14,828 nt of DNA, taken from Deltaproteobacteria bacterium (GTDB taxonomy: Bacteria > Desulfobacterota > Desulfobacteria > Desulfobacterales > ETH-SRB1). The notes under the pieces were generated by a model. It saw only the letters and a list, made by a program, of their open reading frames with translations, was not told the DNA's origin and did not search any database. The stretch lies in the NCBI GenBank assembly GCA_003647525.1, contig QMMZ01000012.1, positions 1-14,828 on the forward strand, in the 5' to 3' direction. Of this stretch, positions 3,365 through 13,727 are shown piece after piece (the stretch's first letter is position 1; every line of letters starts with the position of its first letter). The translations under genes and the position numbers were made by a program.

Positions 3365-3631
3365 TTAGCATCGCGTATTCAAGTATTCGCTGGAAACTTG
3401 GAATGATTGCCCTATCGGCTGAAAATCAGCCAGTTCTTGACGCATAAGTTTGGATCGAATTTGCTCAAAACGGCTGATAACTTCTTTGGAATAAAGTCGC
3501 TCGCCACAGTGCAAGCAAATTTCAGCGCGCGCACTTAATACCGCAGTGTGCTTTCCACCACGCAGAAGTTTCTCAACGTCTTTTTCGACCATTTCGCCAC
3601 CGCACACGGGGCACTTATCAAATGGTAGCAT
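3365..3631 (-). CDS. YgiT/MqsA-type zinc-finger antitoxin
   Basis: This 88-residue protein has two CxxC pairs, CPVC at residues 7-10 and CLHC at 39-42, with the family pattern CPVCGGEMVEKDVEKL...ICLHCGERLYS. These bind one zinc ion in YgiT-type (MqsA N-terminal-like) antitoxins. A C-terminal helix-turn-helix as in full-length MqsA is absent; the remaining ~40 residues are probably helical (EVISRFEQIRSKLMRQELAD). It overlaps the upstream DUF4258 gene by 14 bases, the coupling usual for toxin-antitoxin pairs, here with the toxin first. It would neutralise the DUF4258 protein and perhaps help repress the operon. A good ribosome site (AAGGAGA) lies before the ATG within the toxin gene. Confidence 0.82.
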   Translation of the reverse strand: MLPFDKCPVCGGEMVEKDVEKLLRGGKHTAVLSARAEICLHCGERLYSKEVISRFEQIRSKLMRQELADFQPIGQSFQVSSEYLNTRC

Positions 3632-3944
3632 CTTTTGGTCTCCTTGTTCGCCAGTTGATCCAGAGTTTTGGATCGGGACGATACACAGTAATTAGGACGG
3701 CCCAATGGTTTTCCTGATTGTAAGCCCAAACGCTGTGCACTGGGTCGTCCCTGAAAGTTTTACCATAGATTAGGCAACTCGGATATGGTCTATCGCTTGG
3801 ATACTCCTCGATAATCTCACCTTGAAATACAGTCATTAAGATTTCGTCGAAGGATAGCCGATCTGATTGCGCTTCCTCGTCAGCATGGTCCGTAATGCGT
3901 ATTCTATCGCACCTTATCGCGTCAATAATGTCTTCCAAATTCAC
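3618..3944 (-). CDS. DUF4258 domain protein, putative RNase-like toxin
   Basis: This 108-residue protein has the DUF4258 layout: an N-terminal helix LEDIIDAIRCDRIRITDHAD with the conserved His, the middle strand region VFQGEIIEEYPSDRPYPSCL, and the C-terminal HSVWAYNQENHWAVLITVYRP followed by DPKLWINWRTRR. The family belongs to the RelE/ParE-like group of toxins and is commonly encoded just before a YgiT-type zinc-finger gene, as here. The start is a GTG at 3944, with AAGGAA nine bases upstream. Length and motifs look complete, so this is probably a working module on an otherwise decayed stretch. Ribonuclease activity is inferred from the family, not visible in catalytic residues that I can name. 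Confidence 0.8.
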   Translation of the reverse strand: MNLEDIIDAIRCDRIRITDHADEEAQSDRLSFDEILMTVFQGEIIEEYPSDRPYPSCLIYGKTFRDDPVHSVWAYNQENHWAVLITVYRPDPKLWINWRTRRPKDATI

Positions 3945-5670: not shown

Positions 5671-5934
5671 ATGGGATCAAGAAAAACAGCCAGCGCCAGA
5701 GCATTGATAGAGCCCGAGGTCAAGAAAGAGGCTGAAAAGATACTCAAAAGCCTTGGATTATCAGTTTCAACATCATTTGAATTGTTTTACAGGCAGGTTA
5801 TTGCCCAACGTGGGTTACCTTTTGAACTCCACGTTCCCAATGAAAAAACCATGAAAGCTATTGAAAATTCCAGACAAGGCAAAGGGAAGGCATTTTCTAC
5901 ACTTCAAGAACTTTTTGATGATCTCGGGATATAA
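5671..5934 (+). CDS. dinJ: RelB/DinJ family antitoxin
   Basis: This 87-residue protein has the family layout: an N-terminal ribbon-helix-helix part, SARALIEPEVKKEAEKILKS (about residues 8-27), LGLSVSTSFELFYRQVIAQR and GLPFELHVPN, and a C-terminal tail KAFSTLQELFDDLGI that wraps the toxin. In E. coli DinJ the same order is found, with LGLS.S.A...F..Q....GLPF. It would bind DNA as a dimer and neutralise the YafQ-type toxin encoded five bases downstream. The ATG follows a strong AGGAGGG site. A promoter with a palindrome lies about 180 bases upstream. The symbol is used because the partner toxin is clearly YafQ-like. Confidence 0.88.
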   Translation: MGSRKTASARALIEPEVKKEAEKILKSLGLSVSTSFELFYRQVIAQRGLPFELHVPNEKTMKAIENSRQGKGKAFSTLQELFDDLGI

Positions 5935-5939
5935 ACATA

Positions 5940-6209
5940 ATGAGATCAATCAAACGCGACACACAGTTCAAAAGGGACGTTGATCGTATAATCAAACGCC
6001 ATAAAGATGCGAACAAGTTGAAAAATATTATTAAGCGCCTGGCCAATGCTGAAAAACTGCCGCCACGAAATAAAGATCATCAACTCAAAGGCACATTAAA
6101 GGACTGTCGAGAATGCCATATTGAGTCTGACTGGTTGCTCATTTATCGTATAAAAGGAAGCGAACTTTGCCTCATTCGAACAGGAACACATTTAGATTTG
6201 TTTAAGTAG
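5940..6209 (+). CDS. yafQ: YafQ family mRNA interferase toxin
   Basis: This 89-residue protein belongs to the YafQ branch of RelE-type ribosome-dependent mRNA endonucleases. The hallmark stretch RECHIESDWLLIYRI and the end LIRTGTHLDLF are present. Residues that correspond to the E. coli YafQ active site are all there: H47, H60, D64, W65, R80, H84 and F88 (E. coli H50, H63, D67, W68, R83, H87, F91). It should cut mRNA in the ribosomal A site when free of antitoxin. It starts five bases after the dinJ stop, without its own strong ribosome site, so translation is likely coupled. Length is normal and no lesion is seen. Confidence 0.9.
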   Translation: MRSIKRDTQFKRDVDRIIKRHKDANKLKNIIKRLANAEKLPPRNKDHQLKGTLKDCRECHIESDWLLIYRIKGSELCLIRTGTHLDLFK

Positions 6210-6466
6210 TGTCTGAACGAAAATCCATGCTGCATGATTTGTTGGGTTTCGTGTTGCGTTGTCCGGGCGCATTACACCTTTCAAAAAGCAGCCTGCGCAA
6301 GCCCGCGACGTAATTTTTTTATAACATGGCTGAAAAGACAACATCCGGTGAAGAAGGGAGAGGCAGAAGGCCAGGTTGTGATCAGAAGGGTAAGATAGTC
6401 TCAAGATTAAGAAATTGGATATTAATGGAGCTTCGCTTTTTGCGGGATATGGACAAGCGATTAAAA

Positions 6467-7753
6467 ATGCAGATAGACGACAAAAAAGCAATATTCGGAT
6501 GGAGCATGTATGACTGGGCCAATTCGGCCTTTGCCACTACAATTATGGCTGGCTTTTTCCCGATTTTTTTTAAGCAATACTGGAGTGCGGGTGTTGATGC
6601 CACGGTGAGTACAGCAAGATTGGGGATGGCAAATTCGATTGGCGGTATCTTTGTAGCTCTATTTGCACCAATACTTGGAGCTATTGCCGACAAGGGAACA
6701 TCAAAAAAGAAGTTTCTAATGTTCTTTGCCTATATGGGCGTGGTTATGACTTTGTCCCTGTATATGGTTTCAAAGGGCAACTGGCCAATAGCCGTTGTTT
6801 TGTATGTTTTTGCAACTGTCGGATTCTCGGGAGGAAACATTTTTTATGATTCATTATTAACCGGTGTTGCTTCAAAAAAGAAAATGGATTTTGTTTCTGC
6901 GTTGGGATTTTCGCTGGGATATCTGGGCGGAGGCCTTCTTTTTGCTTTAAATGTATGGATGACCCTCAGGCCTGAAACATTTGGATTTGCTGATGCCGGA
7001 GAAGCTGTGAAATTTTCGTTCCTTTGCGTTGGTGCCTGGTGGGCGTTTTTCTCTATACCGCTCTTTATTTTTGTGAAAGAACCTGTGAGCAGAGATGCTG
7101 TATCCGGCGTGAATATGGTGAAAGCAGGCTTTGTCCAGTTAAAAGAAACTTTTCATCAGGTCAGTCGCCTGAAGCCCATATTCATATTTCTTATGGCGTA
7201 CTGGCTTTATATGGACGGGGTGGACACAATAGTACGTATGGCAGTAGATTATGGAATTTCAATCGGCTTTGAATCAAATGATTTAATAGTTGCTTTGCTT
7301 ATCACACAATTTATCGGATTTCCTTCCGCCATAGGATTTGGTTATCTTGGGGGCAAGATAGGCGCCAGGCGTTCAATTTTTATAGCAATTGGAGTTTATC
7401 TCTTTGTTTCCATATGGGGCGCTTTTATGCAGAACAAAATTGAATTCTATATTCTTGCCATTATCATTGGTATGGTGCAGGGCGGGATACAGGCATTAAG
7501 CCGCTCTTATTATGCCAAGATAATTCCTGTGGACAAATCAGCCGAGTACTTTGGCTTCTATAATATGCTTGGAAAATTTGCAGCGGTCATCGGTCCTGTT
7601 TTCATGGGATTAATCGGCCTTATGGTCAGACATATGGGATACAGCAGTGATATCGCGTCAAGAGTCAGTATTATGTCTATTTCGCTATTCTTTATTGCAG
7701 GCGGAACTTTATTATATTTTGTAGATGAAGAAAGAAATAATGAAAAAATATAG
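6467..7753 (+). CDS. MFS transporter, UMF1 family
   Basis: This ~428-residue inner-membrane protein has about 12 hydrophobic segments and begins with the UMF1-type signature FGWSMYDWANSAFATTIMAG (residues 10-29) followed by FFPIFFKQYW. The loop after the second membrane segment carries AIADKGTSKKKFL, the MFS motif A equivalent; a similar loop GYLGGKIGARRS occurs in the second half. The substrate is not known from sequence. The gene overlaps the next by 14-29 bases and that product is an Aas-like lipid enzyme. In E. coli the MFS flippase LplT precedes Aas and moves lysophospholipids inward, so a lipid-related role is inferred. In-frame ATGs also lie at 6449, 6425 and 6326; the residues they add do not look like the family, so 6467 is preferred, though none has a strong ribosome site. 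Confidence 0.88.
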   Translation: MQIDDKKAIFGWSMYDWANSAFATTIMAGFFPIFFKQYWSAGVDATVSTARLGMANSIGGIFVALFAPILGAIADKGTSKKKFLMFFAYMGVVMTLSLYMVSKGNWPIAVVLYVFATVGFSGGNIFYDSLLTGVASKKKMDFVSALGFSLGYLGGGLLFALNVWMTLRPETFGFADAGEAVKFSFLCVGAWWAFFSIPLFIFVKEPVSRDAVSGVNMVKAGFVQLKETFHQVSRLKPIFIFLMAYWLYMDGVDTIVRMAVDYGISIGFESNDLIVALLITQFIGFPSAIGFGYLGGKIGARRSIFIAIGVYLFVSIWGAFMQNKIEFYILAIIIGMVQGGIQALSRSYYAKIIPVDKSAEYFGFYNMLGKFAAVIGPVFMGLIGLMVRHMGYSSDIASRVSIMSISLFFIAGGTLLYFVDEERNNEKI

Positions 7754-10388
7754 TCTATTGAATAAATTGCTGGGACTGTTAGCTAAAATTCTAATCAGGC
7801 TTCGTTACAGCATCAAAATAAAAGGGCTGGATGATATAAAATCAAGGGGAAAAAGCAGCATTCTCTTTTTGCCGAATCATCCTGCATTGGTAGATCCTGT
7901 CATCATAGTTTCTATTTTGCACAAAAATTTTTTCCCGCACTCACTTGCCGTTGAATTCCGGCTAACTAATCCTTTGCTTGCATGGATAAGCAAACGCTTT
8001 GGAGCAAGGTTGATCCCTGATATTCCTAGAGCAGGACGTGCTGCTTCCACAGTTATTAAAGAAGTGCTTTCGGAAAGTATTGAACATATTCGAAGCAATG
8101 GGAATTTTTTGCTCTACCCTGCGGGCCACCTCAAAAGGAGTTTCATGGAAGAAATCCGGGCAACCAGCGCAGTCAAACTAATTCTGGAACAGGTTCCAGA
8201 TGTCCGTGTGGTTCTGGTACGTCAGAATGGCTTATGGGGAAGCAGTTTTAGCTGGGCTTCAGGCAAGAATCCGGATGTTATGTTTAACCTTAAGCAGGGC
8301 CTGAAGTATCTTTTTCTTAACGGCTTATTTTTCATGCCGCGCAGGCCGGTACAAATTGAATTTGTCGAACCAAAAAACTTTCCCCGCACAGCAGACCGGA
8401 TTACCATGAACCGTTTTTTAGAGGATTTTTACAATGCCGATGCTTCCCGAAATACCTATGTCCCATATCTTTTCTATGAGAAGGGTGGTGTTAGGATATG
8501 CCCTGAGCCGGAGCATGTAAAGATCGACTGGAAGACCGATGCTGTGCCTGAAACCACACAGAAACTGGTGATTGAATTTCTGGGGCAATTTACGGGGCAG
8601 ACAGACATAAAAAAAGATCATCATCTGGCGTATGACCTTGGACTGGACAGTCTTGCCGTTGCAGAAGTAATTGCATGGCTGGAAAAGGAATTCGGGTTTT
8701 CCCAGGTTGATACTGGTTCATTGAATACTGTCTGGGATGTAATGCAGGCTGCAATGGGCAAAGGAGTGGCATCTGATAATGTGCCATTGAAACCAGCGAG
8801 TCAGAGGTGGCTTAGACAACCTTCTTCAAACACTCAGTTAACCGTAGCCGAAGGGAGTACGATAACTGAGGTTTTTTTAAACCAGGCAAAACGGAATCCT
8901 TCCAAACTTATCATTGCAGATCAGGTAAGCGGCGAAAAGACGTATCGCGATATTATTGTTGCAATTATGGTGCTTAAACCCCTGATAAAGTCTTTACCCG
9001 GCAGCCATATAGGGATTATGCTGCCTGCATCGGCAGGAGCTACAACAGTTTATCTGGCTACCCTTTTTGCCGGCAAGATACCGGTTATGGTGAACTGGAC
9101 GGTCGGCCCTCGCAATATGGTACATTCACTTAATCTTATTGGTGTAAATAATGTATTGACCGCTAATGTACTGGTTAACAGGCTTTCAATGCAGGGAATA
9201 AACCTGGAGCAATTGAGCGATCGCTTTATATTTCTTGAAGATCTTCGCAAAAAAATTTCGTATAAATCCAAAATATCAGCCTGTTTAAGGAGCAGGCTAA
9301 CCTGGTCGTCGTTAAAACATCCTAAAATGAATGATATCGCTGTAATATTGTTTACCAGCGGTTCAGAAGGCCTGCCTAAAGCTGTACCTCTTTCGCATAG
9401 TAATATAATGACAAATATTAGAGATATCCCTTCAATGGCAACAGCTTGGGAGAAGGATGTTTTGGTTGGCATCCTGCCTCCATTCCATTCATTCGGCATT
9501 ACAGCAACAATTGTACTTCCGTTATCTATGGGTATTCGTACAGTATATAATCCAAATCCTACCGAGGCATTGACTATTGCACGTTTAATAGAAGAATACA
9601 GGGTATCGCTAATGGTCGGCACTCCCACATTTTTAAATGGCATCGTGAAAGCATCGAGCAGTAAACAGCTTCAAACATTACGCCTTGTCATCAGTGGTGC
9701 TGAGAAATGTCCGGCAGCAGTTTACAAGTCTATAAATGAACACTGCCCGAATATAAAACTTCTCGAAGGCTACGGTGTAACTGAATGTTCGCCAATTGTA
9801 TCTTTCAACATGGAAAATTCGCCAAAACCATATACGATCGGCAGGGTAATGCCATCGCTTGAATATATAATTATTAGTGTTGATACCGGTAAAGAAGTCG
9901 GCAGGAACAGAGCTGGGATGCTTCTGGTGCGCGGACCAAGCGTATTCAGCGGTTACCTGAACTATGACGGAGAATCTCCCTTTGTTGAACATAAAGGCAA
10001 AGAATGGTACAAAACCGGCGACCTTATATCCGAAGATGCTGAGGGAGTTTTAACCTTTTGCGGGCGATTGAAACGCTTTGTTAAGCTGGGAGGTGAAATG
10101 ATCTCACTGCCCGCTATAGAAGAGGTCTTAGTGCCACACTTTGCAGGTGATGACGAAGAGGGCCCTGTAATCGCAGTTGAGGCAACACCCAGCGAGGAAA
10201 ATCCCGAGCTGATATTATTTACGGTCAAGGATACAGATCGGGTATCGGTAAATTCCTGTCTTCGCGATGCCGGTCTCAGTGCTCTCCACAATATCAGGCA
10301 TGTGATAAAATTGGATGAAATACCGGTTCTGGGGACAGGTAAAACCAATTATCTGGAGCTCAAGAAACATTTAGAGGCATTGGTTTAA
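7740..10388 (+). CDS. aas: Trifunctional Aas-like protein: PlsC acyltransferase - acyl carrier protein - acyl-ACP synthetase
   Basis: About 882 residues in three parts. Residues ~1-230 are a PlsC/LPLAT acyltransferase with catalytic NHPALVD (N46, H47, D52) and a YPAG block (126-129) in place of the usual FPEG. Residues ~265-340 form an acyl carrier protein with the phosphopantetheine serine in DLGLDSLAVAEVI (S304). Residues ~375-882 are an AMP-forming ligase: TSGSEGLPK (539-547), GYGVTE (677-682), YKTGDL, GRLKR (775-779) and the C-terminal lysine in GTGKTNYLEL (K868). E. coli Aas (719 residues) has only the first and last parts. The enzyme likely activates a fatty acid, loads it on its own ACP and transfers it to a lysophospholipid at the membrane. 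ATG 7740 has a GAAGAAAG sequence before it; an in-frame ATG at 7725 is possible. It overlaps the transporter gene, indicating one operon. Confidence 0.9.
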   Translation: MKKYSLLNKLLGLLAKILIRLRYSIKIKGLDDIKSRGKSSILFLPNHPALVDPVIIVSILHKNFFPHSLAVEFRLTNPLLAWISKRFGARLIPDIPRAGRAASTVIKEVLSESIEHIRSNGNFLLYPAGHLKRSFMEEIRATSAVKLILEQVPDVRVVLVRQNGLWGSSFSWASGKNPDVMFNLKQGLKYLFLNGLFFMPRRPVQIEFVEPKNFPRTADRITMNRFLEDFYNADASRNTYVPYLFYEKGGVRICPEPEHVKIDWKTDAVPETTQKLVIEFLGQFTGQTDIKKDHHLAYDLGLDSLAVAEVIAWLEKEFGFSQVDTGSLNTVWDVMQAAMGKGVASDNVPLKPASQRWLRQPSSNTQLTVAEGSTITEVFLNQAKRNPSKLIIADQVSGEKTYRDIIVAIMVLKPLIKSLPGSHIGIMLPASAGATTVYLATLFAGKIPVMVNWTVGPRNMVHSLNLIGVNNVLTANVLVNRLSMQGINLEQLSDRFIFLEDLRKKISYKSKISACLRSRLTWSSLKHPKMNDIAVILFTSGSEGLPKAVPLSHSNIMTNIRDIPSMATAWEKDVLVGILPPFHSFGITATIVLPLSMGIRTVYNPNPTEALTIARLIEEYRVSLMVGTPTFLNGIVKASSSKQLQTLRLVISGAEKCPAAVYKSINEHCPNIKLLEGYGVTECSPIVSFNMENSPKPYTIGRVMPSLEYIIISVDTGKEVGRNRAGMLLVRGPSVFSGYLNYDGESPFVEHKGKEWYKTGDLISEDAEGVLTFCGRLKRFVKLGGEMISLPAIEEVLVPHFAGDDEEGPVIAVEATPSEENPELILFTVKDTDRVSVNSCLRDAGLSALHNIRHVIKLDEIPVLGTGKTNYLELKKHLEALV

Positions 10389-10405
10389 ATTGGTTTTTTG
10401 GTAAT

Positions 10406-10437
10406 AGTTCACCACGGATTTTCACGGAATTACACTG
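10406..10437 (+). repeat. CACGGA inverted repeat, left arm
   Basis: AGTTCACCACGGA (10406-10418) is a perfect inverted copy of 10625-10637, and the next bases (ttcacggaattacactg) match the rest of the right arm imperfectly. The arms enclose about 170 bases of GxxExxY coding remnant. The style resembles the CACGAAGG array beside the other GxxExxY remnant at 1605. Confidence 0.7.
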
Positions 10438-10611
10438 AACTATCAATAGATCCATTCTCAAGCGAGTTGTTTTGAAATAATTGATCAATTGGGTTTTGTT
10501 CTGATTTGTTATCTTTTTTATGGCCTTGTTTTCTACCAGGAGATCGACTTGTAATCTACGTTCAAATTTAATATTCTTATTTTTATACTCATTGTTTACA
10601 ATTTTCAGTGA
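10425..10611 (-). pseudogene. GxxExxY family protein remnant
   Basis: The minus strand has an open frame reading IVNNEYKNKNIKFERRLQVD then LLVENKAIKKITNQNKTQ and LINYFKTTRLRMDLLI. This matches the second half of GxxExxY proteins, where YKN..I..ERR.QVDLLVENKAI is followed by TQLINYFKTTRLRMGLLI. The conserved ELKAVE region between them is shortened (KAIKKITNQNK), and the N-terminal GxxExxY half and a start codon are missing. The frame runs through the left CACGGA arm into the end of aas. It is a dead fragment lying against the direction of its neighbours, with the inverted-repeat arms as its limits. Confidence 0.7.
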
Positions 10612-10637
10612 AACTCCGTGTCGTTCCGTGGTGAACT
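10606..10637 (-). repeat. CACGGA inverted repeat, right arm
   Basis: The minus strand reads AGTTCACCACGGAACGACAC then GGAGTTTCACTG, the partner of 10406-10437. The outermost 13 bases are identical. Confidence 0.7.
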
Positions 10638-10661
10638 TTTACAATTAGTGAAAGGTTAATA

Positions 10662-13262: not shown

Positions 13263-13727
13263 ATGGCACTTTTGCTTGTTCGGCATGGCAAGAGCTTGCC
13301 CTGGGACAAAGACCCTGCCAAGGGTCTTTCTGAAGAAGGAATTTCAGAAGTTGAGCATATTGCGGGGGTTGCAAAAAAATATGGGGTTAATGTTTCCCGT
13401 ATCATGCATAGCGAGAAAAAGAGAGCGCTCCAGACCGCAGAAATATTTGCATCAGCCCTGAAACCGGACGGCGGCATCCAGGAAATTAAGGGGATTAATC
13501 CTCTGGATGATGTGGCTGCTTTTGCCGATAAAATTGAAATCAGCGACAATTTAATGCTTGTCGGCCATTTACCCTTTATGCAAAGGCTGACTTCATACCT
13601 GATAACCGGATCCATCGAACAACCTGTGTTCAAGTTCCAGAATGGCGGCATACTGTGTATGGATAAAAATTTGGAAGCCGCCCAGACATGGTTTATAAAA
13701 TGGGCACTTATGCCACATCTCAGATAA
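13263..13727 (+). CDS. sixA: SixA-like phosphohistidine phosphatase (histidine phosphatase superfamily)
   Basis: This 154-residue protein starts with the RHG motif, MALLLVRHGKSLPWDKDPAK (R7, H8, G9), where H8 is the residue that takes the phosphate. MHSEKKRALQTAEIF supplies the second arginine (R54) and LMLVGHLPFM the second histidine (H102). The short length, the L-S-E-E-G motif after the RHG and the absence of an inserted lid match SixA rather than phosphoglycerate mutase. SixA in E. coli removes phosphate from phosphohistidine in proteins of phosphorelay or PTS type. Here it follows ppsA, whose enzyme works through a phosphohistidine, so PpsA is a reasonable candidate substrate (inference). 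A GATAGGAGA ribosome site precedes the ATG. Confidence 0.87.
   Translation: MALLLVRHGKSLPWDKDPAKGLSEEGISEVEHIAGVAKKYGVNVSRIMHSEKKRALQTAEIFASALKPDGGIQEIKGINPLDDVAAFADKIEISDNLMLVGHLPFMQRLTSYLITGSIEQPVFKFQNGGILCMDKNLEAAQTWFIKWALMPHLR

Follow-up and report, generated by a model that had tools for sequence, protein, structure and literature searches.

Our analysis identified a gene for a UMF1 transporter of the major facilitator superfamily (MFS) that overlaps the gene of a three-domain lipid enzyme in a 14,828-nucleotide stretch of contig QMMZ01000012.1 (assembly GCA_003647525.1, Deltaproteobacteria bacterium), which we call the window. The enzyme, hereafter the fusion, carries a PlsC-fold acyltransferase, an acyl carrier protein (ACP) domain and an acyl-ACP synthetase (AasS) in one chain. 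We lean, with modest confidence, towards the view that the pair is an Aas-type lipid re-acylation module with a built-in carrier, in which UMF1 would have replaced an LplT-like flippase. The view draws on what the sequences and structure models provide, namely the domain order and folds of the enzyme, its conserved catalytic residues, the overlapping genes, two clades with a different transporter partner, and the lack of LplT-like matches in the UMF1-linked genomes that were tested. Because the enzyme keeps the domain order and catalytic dyad of Aas and adds a carrier in cis, the most parsimonious interpretation is that it re-acylates lysolipids with its own ACP while UMF1 serves as the flippase.

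The original prediction, made from the DNA letters of the window, held that a UMF1 gene is coupled to the gene of a three-domain enzyme. This arrangement is real: the two genes overlap by 14 nt (Table 1), and the domains were seen by Pfam and in models. Translational coupling of the two genes through the overlap is possible. The genes likewise overlap at four loci of relatives (L001, L002, L004 and L092), and at L094, L096 and L104 the UMF1 and fusion matches are separated by 10-209 nt. The window’s UMF1 passes the Pfam gathering score of PF11700 (211.5 bits versus a cut-off of 24.1, the Pfam scores of this protein having been obtained on a longer frame starting at 6326). It is 93-94% identical to the UMF1 proteins of L001 and L002 and 66% identical to those of the Sedimentisphaerales loci L010 and L021. 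As predicted, it belongs to an MFS family other than LplT. No NCBIfam match to the LplT model was found in the window’s UMF1, and the best BLASTP alignment between LplT and UMF1 was a 22-column stretch only (E 0.056).

Of the three domains predicted for the fusion, Pfam recognized AMP-binding (PF00501, 217.4 bits) and PP-binding (PF00550, 27.9 bits). The acyltransferase (PF01553) was sub-threshold in the window protein (19.3 bits versus a cut-off of 23) and present by fold; relatives L005, L010, L030 and L336 pass the gathering score of this family. Among NCBIfam models, the fusion is closest to the Aas-type PRK08633, PRK06334, PRK06814 and PRK08043, all far under their cut-offs. PRK06334, a long-chain fatty acid-[ACP] ligase, matches the synthetase domain with an E of 4e-119, and PRK08043, the Aas equivalog, is matched with 281 bits against a cut-off of 886. 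The full-length AlphaFold model has a pLDDT of 87.3. With Foldseek, both the PlsC fold and the ACP fold were seen, S304 begins helix 2 of the ACP, and the synthetase domain has ANL matches down to E 6.6e-34. The ACP sits in cis, with a PlsC-fold acyltransferase before it and an AasS-type ligase after it, and the ACP fold looked for around S304 is present.

The pair resembles LplT-Aas of E. coli (b2835-b2836), where an MFS gene also adjoins the gene of a PlsC-then-AasS enzyme. The domain order of the two enzymes is the same, with H36/D41 of E. coli Aas aligned to H47/D52, and the E. coli genes overlap by 8 nt. However, aas comes first in E. coli and the MFS gene comes first in the window; the transporter is LplT in E. 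coli and UMF1 here; and the acyltransferase motif is FPEG in E. coli Aas but YPAG in the window enzyme. E. coli has a separate ACP, whereas the window enzyme holds one within its chain (E. coli Aas is 719 aa with no PF00550 match, the window enzyme 882 aa with one). According to passages of one article, E. coli LplT flips lysophospholipids and passes them to the transferase domain of Aas, LplT and Aas bind each other, the transferase uses acyl-ACP from Aas’s own synthetase domain, and H36 is essential for lysolipid acylation (PMC11416262). Single-chain LplT-PlsC-AasS fusions (PRK08633 and PRK06814; 1140-1147 aa) likewise combine transporter, acyltransferase and synthetase as one set, but model length and alignment indicate that they would have no room for an ACP, and the window protein falls far below the cut-off for such fusions (456 of 1221 bits). 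Four-domain MFS-PlsC-ACP-AasS proteins of ~1300 aa (for example L005 and P0045) belong to the same enzyme family with the MFS fused in front. The L005 protein is 65% identical to the window enzyme, but its MFS is LplT-like. Aas, LplT-Aas fusions, ACP and UMF1 are each of known kinds. The window’s UMF1 is linked to a lipid acyltransferase, whereas yeast Atg22 is known as a vacuolar amino-acid exporter. We take PF11700 and TC 2.A.1.24 to be the same family. UMF1 is entered under TC 2.A.1.24 with an unknown substrate in the relevant part of a 2013 article (PMC3924187). Judged by title and the start of the abstract, the open-licence PubMed Central (PMC) literature yielded no report of a PlsC-ACP-AasS protein or of a lipid role of UMF1.

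From these features we infer the loading of S304, transfer in cis, the acceptor, and the substrate and direction of UMF1 as follows. A lysophospholipid, or a different lipid with a single chain, would reach the cytoplasmic leaflet through UMF1. A free fatty acid would be adenylated by the AasS domain and become attached to the internal ACP through the phosphopantetheine arm of S304. The loaded ACP would then swing over to the acyltransferase domain, whose H47/D52 dyad would move the acyl chain onto the lysolipid. UMF1 would thereby occupy a slot often held by an LplT-like flippase. A bypass of the free ACP pool by such on-chain transfer, as the original prediction envisaged, is plausible. The same domains could also serve fatty-acid salvage for ordinary phospholipid synthesis, in which exogenous fatty acids are activated on the enzyme’s own ACP, PlsC acylates lysophosphatidic acid, and UMF1 imports the fatty acid or has an unrelated substrate. 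This would agree with the best solved-structure match of the acyltransferase domain, a lysophosphatidate acyltransferase (5kym), and with the resemblance of the synthetase domain to fatty acid-[ACP] ligases. Nevertheless, we consider salvage unlikely, given that the domain order is that of Aas and that the commonest identified partner of the enzyme is LplT-like (35/72 loci), LplT of E. coli being described in the passages cited above as a mover of lysophospholipids (PMC11416262).

The partners were counted at 80 loci, which are the best 80 of at least 572 relatives. Eight loci at contig ends were set aside, leaving 72 usable. Partner classes were derived by clustering neighboring or fused hydrophobic proteins and then by profile search. 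Clustering gave two large classes, LplT-like (n=30) and UMF1 (n=6 plus the window). The profile search placed an LplT-like gene adjacent to the fusion in 20 of the 80 loci, fused to it in 15 and elsewhere in 3 (among them L020, where it lies directly downstream), and a UMF1 gene adjacent in 6; 8 loci were contig ends and 28 had none, meaning neither an LplT-like nor a UMF1 gene, the two transporter families that were sought. One locus tallied as none, L003, shows the 3′ end of a UMF1 gene next to a run of N and was counted as UMF1. The final census of the 72 usable loci is 35 LplT-like (15 fused, 20 adjacent), 7 UMF1 in addition to the window, 3 with an LplT-like gene elsewhere in the locus and 27 neither. 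UMF1 was fused to the enzyme in 0 of 109 loci. Seven LplT-like partners reached 61-98 bits with the NCBIfam LplT model (E 1.4e-16 to 5.6e-28), under its cut-off of 297, and are therefore relatives of LplT and not LplT proper. All seven match the MFS part of PRK08633 best, above the LplT model, and the UMF1 of L010, scanned beside them, has no LplT or PRK08633 MFS match. The pairing or fusion of an LplT-like MFS with nearly half of the usable relatives lends support to the predicted distinct repair module. Co-occurrence of UMF1 and the fusion, which the original prediction had suggested checking, holds in the window’s clade and in a Planctomycetota clade but is not general. A universal pairing of the two was rejected, with UMF1 at 7 of the 72 usable loci and 96 of the 102 UMF1 genomes in the order surveyed below lacking the fusion.

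Phylogenetic trees gave a similar picture. The fusion tree holds 97 of the 110 sequences; those left out were 5 duplicates and 8 with fewer than 700 residues. On it, the UMF1-linked enzymes form two clades, that of the window and one from Planctomycetota (L010, L021 and L033). L005, the sister of the window’s clade, carries a fused LplT-like MFS in place of UMF1, and L019, inside the Planctomycetota UMF1 clade, has an adjacent LplT-like MFS. The UMF1 label changes 4 times on this tree as first labelled, one change being due to the assembly gap at L003, and 3 times with L003 counted as UMF1; gains and losses are not distinguishable. The UMF1 tree was made without L128 and L139, which are too short. 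On it the fusion-linked genes are not one clade and the label changes 5 times, 4 of them forced; L033 sits on a long branch of this tree, and the gene of L082, which was labelled as alone, is at a contig end. A single clade of UMF1 linkage was thus rejected on both trees. We also surveyed 193 genomes of the order to which G001, the Desulfobacteraceae genome of L001, belongs. The fusion was found in 12 of them and UMF1 (E <= 1e-30) in 102. UMF1 adjoins the fusion in all six genomes whose enzyme has at least 65% identity (G208, G001, G144, G004, G102 and G176), three of which have a stop or contig break within one gene, and at E <= 1e-30 no UMF1 match was found in the six fusion genomes at 48-52% identity. 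Sequence comparison of this kind suggests that, where UMF1 is linked to the fusion, it has locally replaced an LplT-like partner.

If UMF1 fills the place of the LplT-like transporter, the two genes might be expected to avoid each other. An LplT-like gene was found in 0 of 11 UMF1-linked genomes at E <= 1e-10. Among 39 fusion genomes, UMF1 was present in 7 at E < 1e-100 (10 at E <= 1e-15), an LplT-like gene in 19 at E <= 1e-30, and both in none. Of the 193 genomes of the order, 6 have both genes, 96 UMF1 only, 42 an LplT-like gene only and 49 neither (Fisher 3.7e-11). Because kinship among genomes inflates the Fisher result, an rpoB tree was made from the first 140 of 178 genomes with a match (single marker, FastTree, midpoint root). 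A Pagel-type test on this tree of 140 genomes gave a likelihood ratio (LR) of 25.0 (p 5e-5). When UMF1 was simulated along the tree, p was 0.0014, based on the 1453 of 4000 runs that were kept, those with a UMF1 number near the observed one. With the fusion genomes left out, the values were 1.6e-4 (Pagel) and 0.005 (simulation), and with UMF1 restricted to matches above 450 bits both were 0.008. Four LplT-like genes of the order read as long frames of 603-649 aa. The three that were scanned have PF07690 and PF01553 and no synthetase domain, and in the fourth, L334, acyltransferase motifs only were seen in the sequence. In three members of the same order (L332, L334 and L335; 633-649 aa), an LplT-like MFS is fused to an FPEG-type acyltransferase, and the synthetase domain is absent from the scans of L332 and L335.

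The enzyme itself is a widespread family and is not special to the window. A homologue search returned 2135 proteins at E <= 1e-30 out of 7993 scored candidates. Nine of the best 120 of these are ~1300 aa with an extra MFS Pfam domain, and PF11700 is carried by 0 of the same 120. PF00550 and PF00501 were each found in 40 of 40 aligned members, and PF01553 in 37 (E<=0.01). We did not find an NCBIfam model dedicated to the family. The three-domain fusion claimed by the original prediction therefore exists, but it is not particular to this locus. Among 223 aligned sequences, some of them near copies, the scorable ones carry H47 in 216 of 216 cases and D52 in 213 of 216; the residue at position 304 is Ser in 214 of 223. 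Residue 128, the position of the FPEG Glu, is A/S/G in 217 of 217 sequences and never Glu, giving a family motif of Y/F/W-P-A/S/G-G. The idea that YPAG is peculiar to the window protein was rejected on these grounds; the substitution is family-wide and therefore uninformative about this particular locus. A GLWGSSFS-like block is specific to the enzyme family.

Several observations weigh against the re-acylation module with a replaced flippase. First, with the FPEG Glu lost throughout the family, the enzyme may use another acceptor than Aas does. With this in mind, the enzyme might instead make a special membrane lipid, the MFS exporting or flipping the product with no uptake of lysolipid. The loss of Glu in all 217 sequences and the GLWGSSFS-like block point to an altered acceptor, and family members occur in phyla with unusual lipids. 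In contrast, no lipid-biosynthesis neighbor was recognized in the window (in relatives, the survey covered the MFS partner), and the LplT-like partners are related to a flippase known to act on lysolipids. Of the explanations considered, we regard this one as the least probable. Second, the carrier Ser is lost in 9 of the 223 sequences, all of one Holophagae/Acidobacteria clade (L028, L030, L031, L036, L039, L044, L051, L056 and L057), which have Ala, Val or Gly there. L030 is also without a PF00550 match. Seven of the nine have no LplT-like or UMF1 gene nearby and two lie at contig ends; L028, L051, L056 and L057 share a related hydrophobic neighbor, which had no Pfam match in the two that were scanned. 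Third, the exclusion of LplT-like genes has limits. The nine other fusion genomes in the search of UMF1-linked genomes all have an LplT-like gene, but six were known beforehand, so that they are no fair control and mainly show that the search works. An independent-pairs test was not significant (median p 0.25, 10 pairs), with means over 10 of 2.8 opposite, 0.2 same and 7.0 without difference, a direction that agrees with exclusion, and the assemblies in this survey are mostly incomplete. Finally, no biochemistry on any family member was found in the open-licence PMC literature.

The remaining adverse points concern UMF1 itself and raise the possibility that it is a general nutrient or efflux transporter whose position next to the enzyme gene is due to chance or to co-expression only, with the enzyme needing no partner. 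UMF1 occurs without the fusion (no match at E <= 1e-80) in 96 of the 193 genomes of the order, that is, in 96 of the 102 with UMF1. The 27 of 72 fusion loci with neither an LplT-like nor a UMF1 gene in reach suggest that an adjoining transporter of these kinds is not obligatory. Twenty UMF1 loci without the fusion were fetched; UMF1 was recovered as a listed open reading frame in 19 (not L174), and neighbors were scanned against Pfam at 12 of these. In five of these (Table 1), all belonging to the 12 recovered loci of the window’s order, the gene immediately upstream of UMF1, in the same orientation and 34-245 nt away, encodes a nitroreductase, and the idea that no neighbor recurs beside UMF1 genes lacking the fusion was accordingly rejected. 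A CoA-activase-like protein lies beyond the nitroreductase in L166 and L167, and at L164 (genome G044), another of the five, UMF1 is 78% identical to that of the window. Other neighbors were a beta-CASP nuclease (L165), cytidylate kinase (L168), DUF302 (L171), the alpha subunit of electron transfer flavoprotein (L172), and a cytochrome with a formiminotransferase (L183); no family was recognized in L173 and L178. The nitroreductase context hints at another or wider role for at least some UMF1 proteins and therefore weakens the case for a lipid substrate across the whole family. Still, the adjacency of UMF1 in all six genomes of its clade in the order, with overlapping genes at four loci, its recurrence in the separate Planctomycetota clade, and the mutual exclusion of UMF1 and LplT-like genes all argue against a chance neighbor, which we judge to be quite unlikely. 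A broader proposal is that bacterial UMF1 (Atg22-like) proteins are a second class of lysophospholipid flippase substituting for LplT, beside the enzyme and partly without it across the order. We put this forward tentatively, as a possible but doubtful extension.

Should the re-acylation reading be correct, a transporter family listed with an unknown substrate would gain a concrete and testable cargo. The transporter replacement holds the greatest interest, since a function for the UMF1 family follows from it as a prediction; the flippase slot of the module would be refillable by another MFS family. The enzyme would be a lipid-repair enzyme with its own carrier, in which acyl transfer could be studied in one polypeptide. 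The Ser-less Holophagae/Acidobacteria clade would provide a natural carrier-dead comparison for what the built-in ACP contributes.

Table 1. Positions of the features in the window and of the nitroreductase genes beside UMF1 at loci of the same order that lack the fusion.
Feature	Location	Positions	Strand	Basis
UMF1 / Atg22-like MFS transporter, 428 aa	Window	6467..7753	+	PF11700 211.5 bits, PF07690 64.5 bits
14-nt overlap, UMF1 3′ end / fusion 5′ end	Window	7740..7753	+	Sequence
PlsC-ACP-AasS fusion protein, 882 aa, Aas-like with internal acyl carrier domain	Window	7740..10388	+	Pfam, NCBIfam, AlphaFold model
PlsC-fold acyltransferase domain, residues 1-250	Window	7740..8489	+	Fold match to solved PlsC
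HX4D catalytic motif, H47-D52	Window	7878..7895	+	Aligned to E. coli Aas H36, D41
YPAG, residues 126-129	Window	8115..8126	+	Aligned to FPEG of E. coli Aas
Acyl carrier domain, residues 269-342	Window	8544..8765	+	PF00550, ACP fold
S304, predicted phosphopantetheine attachment Ser in DLGLDSL	Window	8649..8651	+	N-terminus of helix 304-318 in model
Acyl-ACP synthetase (ANL) domain, residues ~360-882	Window	8817..10385	+	PF00501, PRK06334, Foldseek ANL matches
Nitroreductase gene upstream of UMF1	L164	6692-7447		
Nitroreductase gene upstream of UMF1	L166	5231-5875		
Nitroreductase gene upstream of UMF1	L167	7516-8181		
Nitroreductase gene upstream of UMF1	L169	7435-8178		
Nitroreductase gene upstream of UMF1	L170	5047-5748		

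Other features were observed around the gene pair. Just upstream of UMF1, at 5671-6209, Pfam identified a type II toxin-antitoxin pair made of a RelB-family antitoxin (5671-5934) and a YafQ-type toxin (5940-6209). Another set of genes resembling a toxin-antitoxin pair lies on the minus strand at 3365-3944, where the gene of a DUF4258 protein (3618-3944) precedes that of an MqsA-like zinc-ribbon protein (3365-3631) whose match is sub-threshold. The minus strand also encodes, at 1019-2515, a permease for branched-chain amino acids (237 aa, BPD_transp_2), together with a 93-aa frame that has no Pfam match and by eye resembles the final part of a LivF ATPase. Both frames look short, so this transporter operon is possibly broken. 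An inverted repeat at 10401-10642, in the gap that separates the fusion gene from a pyruvate phosphate dikinase gene, has 39-nt arms, 82% complementary and 164 nt apart, and could be a small mobile element or a repeat element. Past the dikinase gene, on its downstream side, 13263-13727 encodes a short histidine phosphatase (PF00300) resembling SixA.

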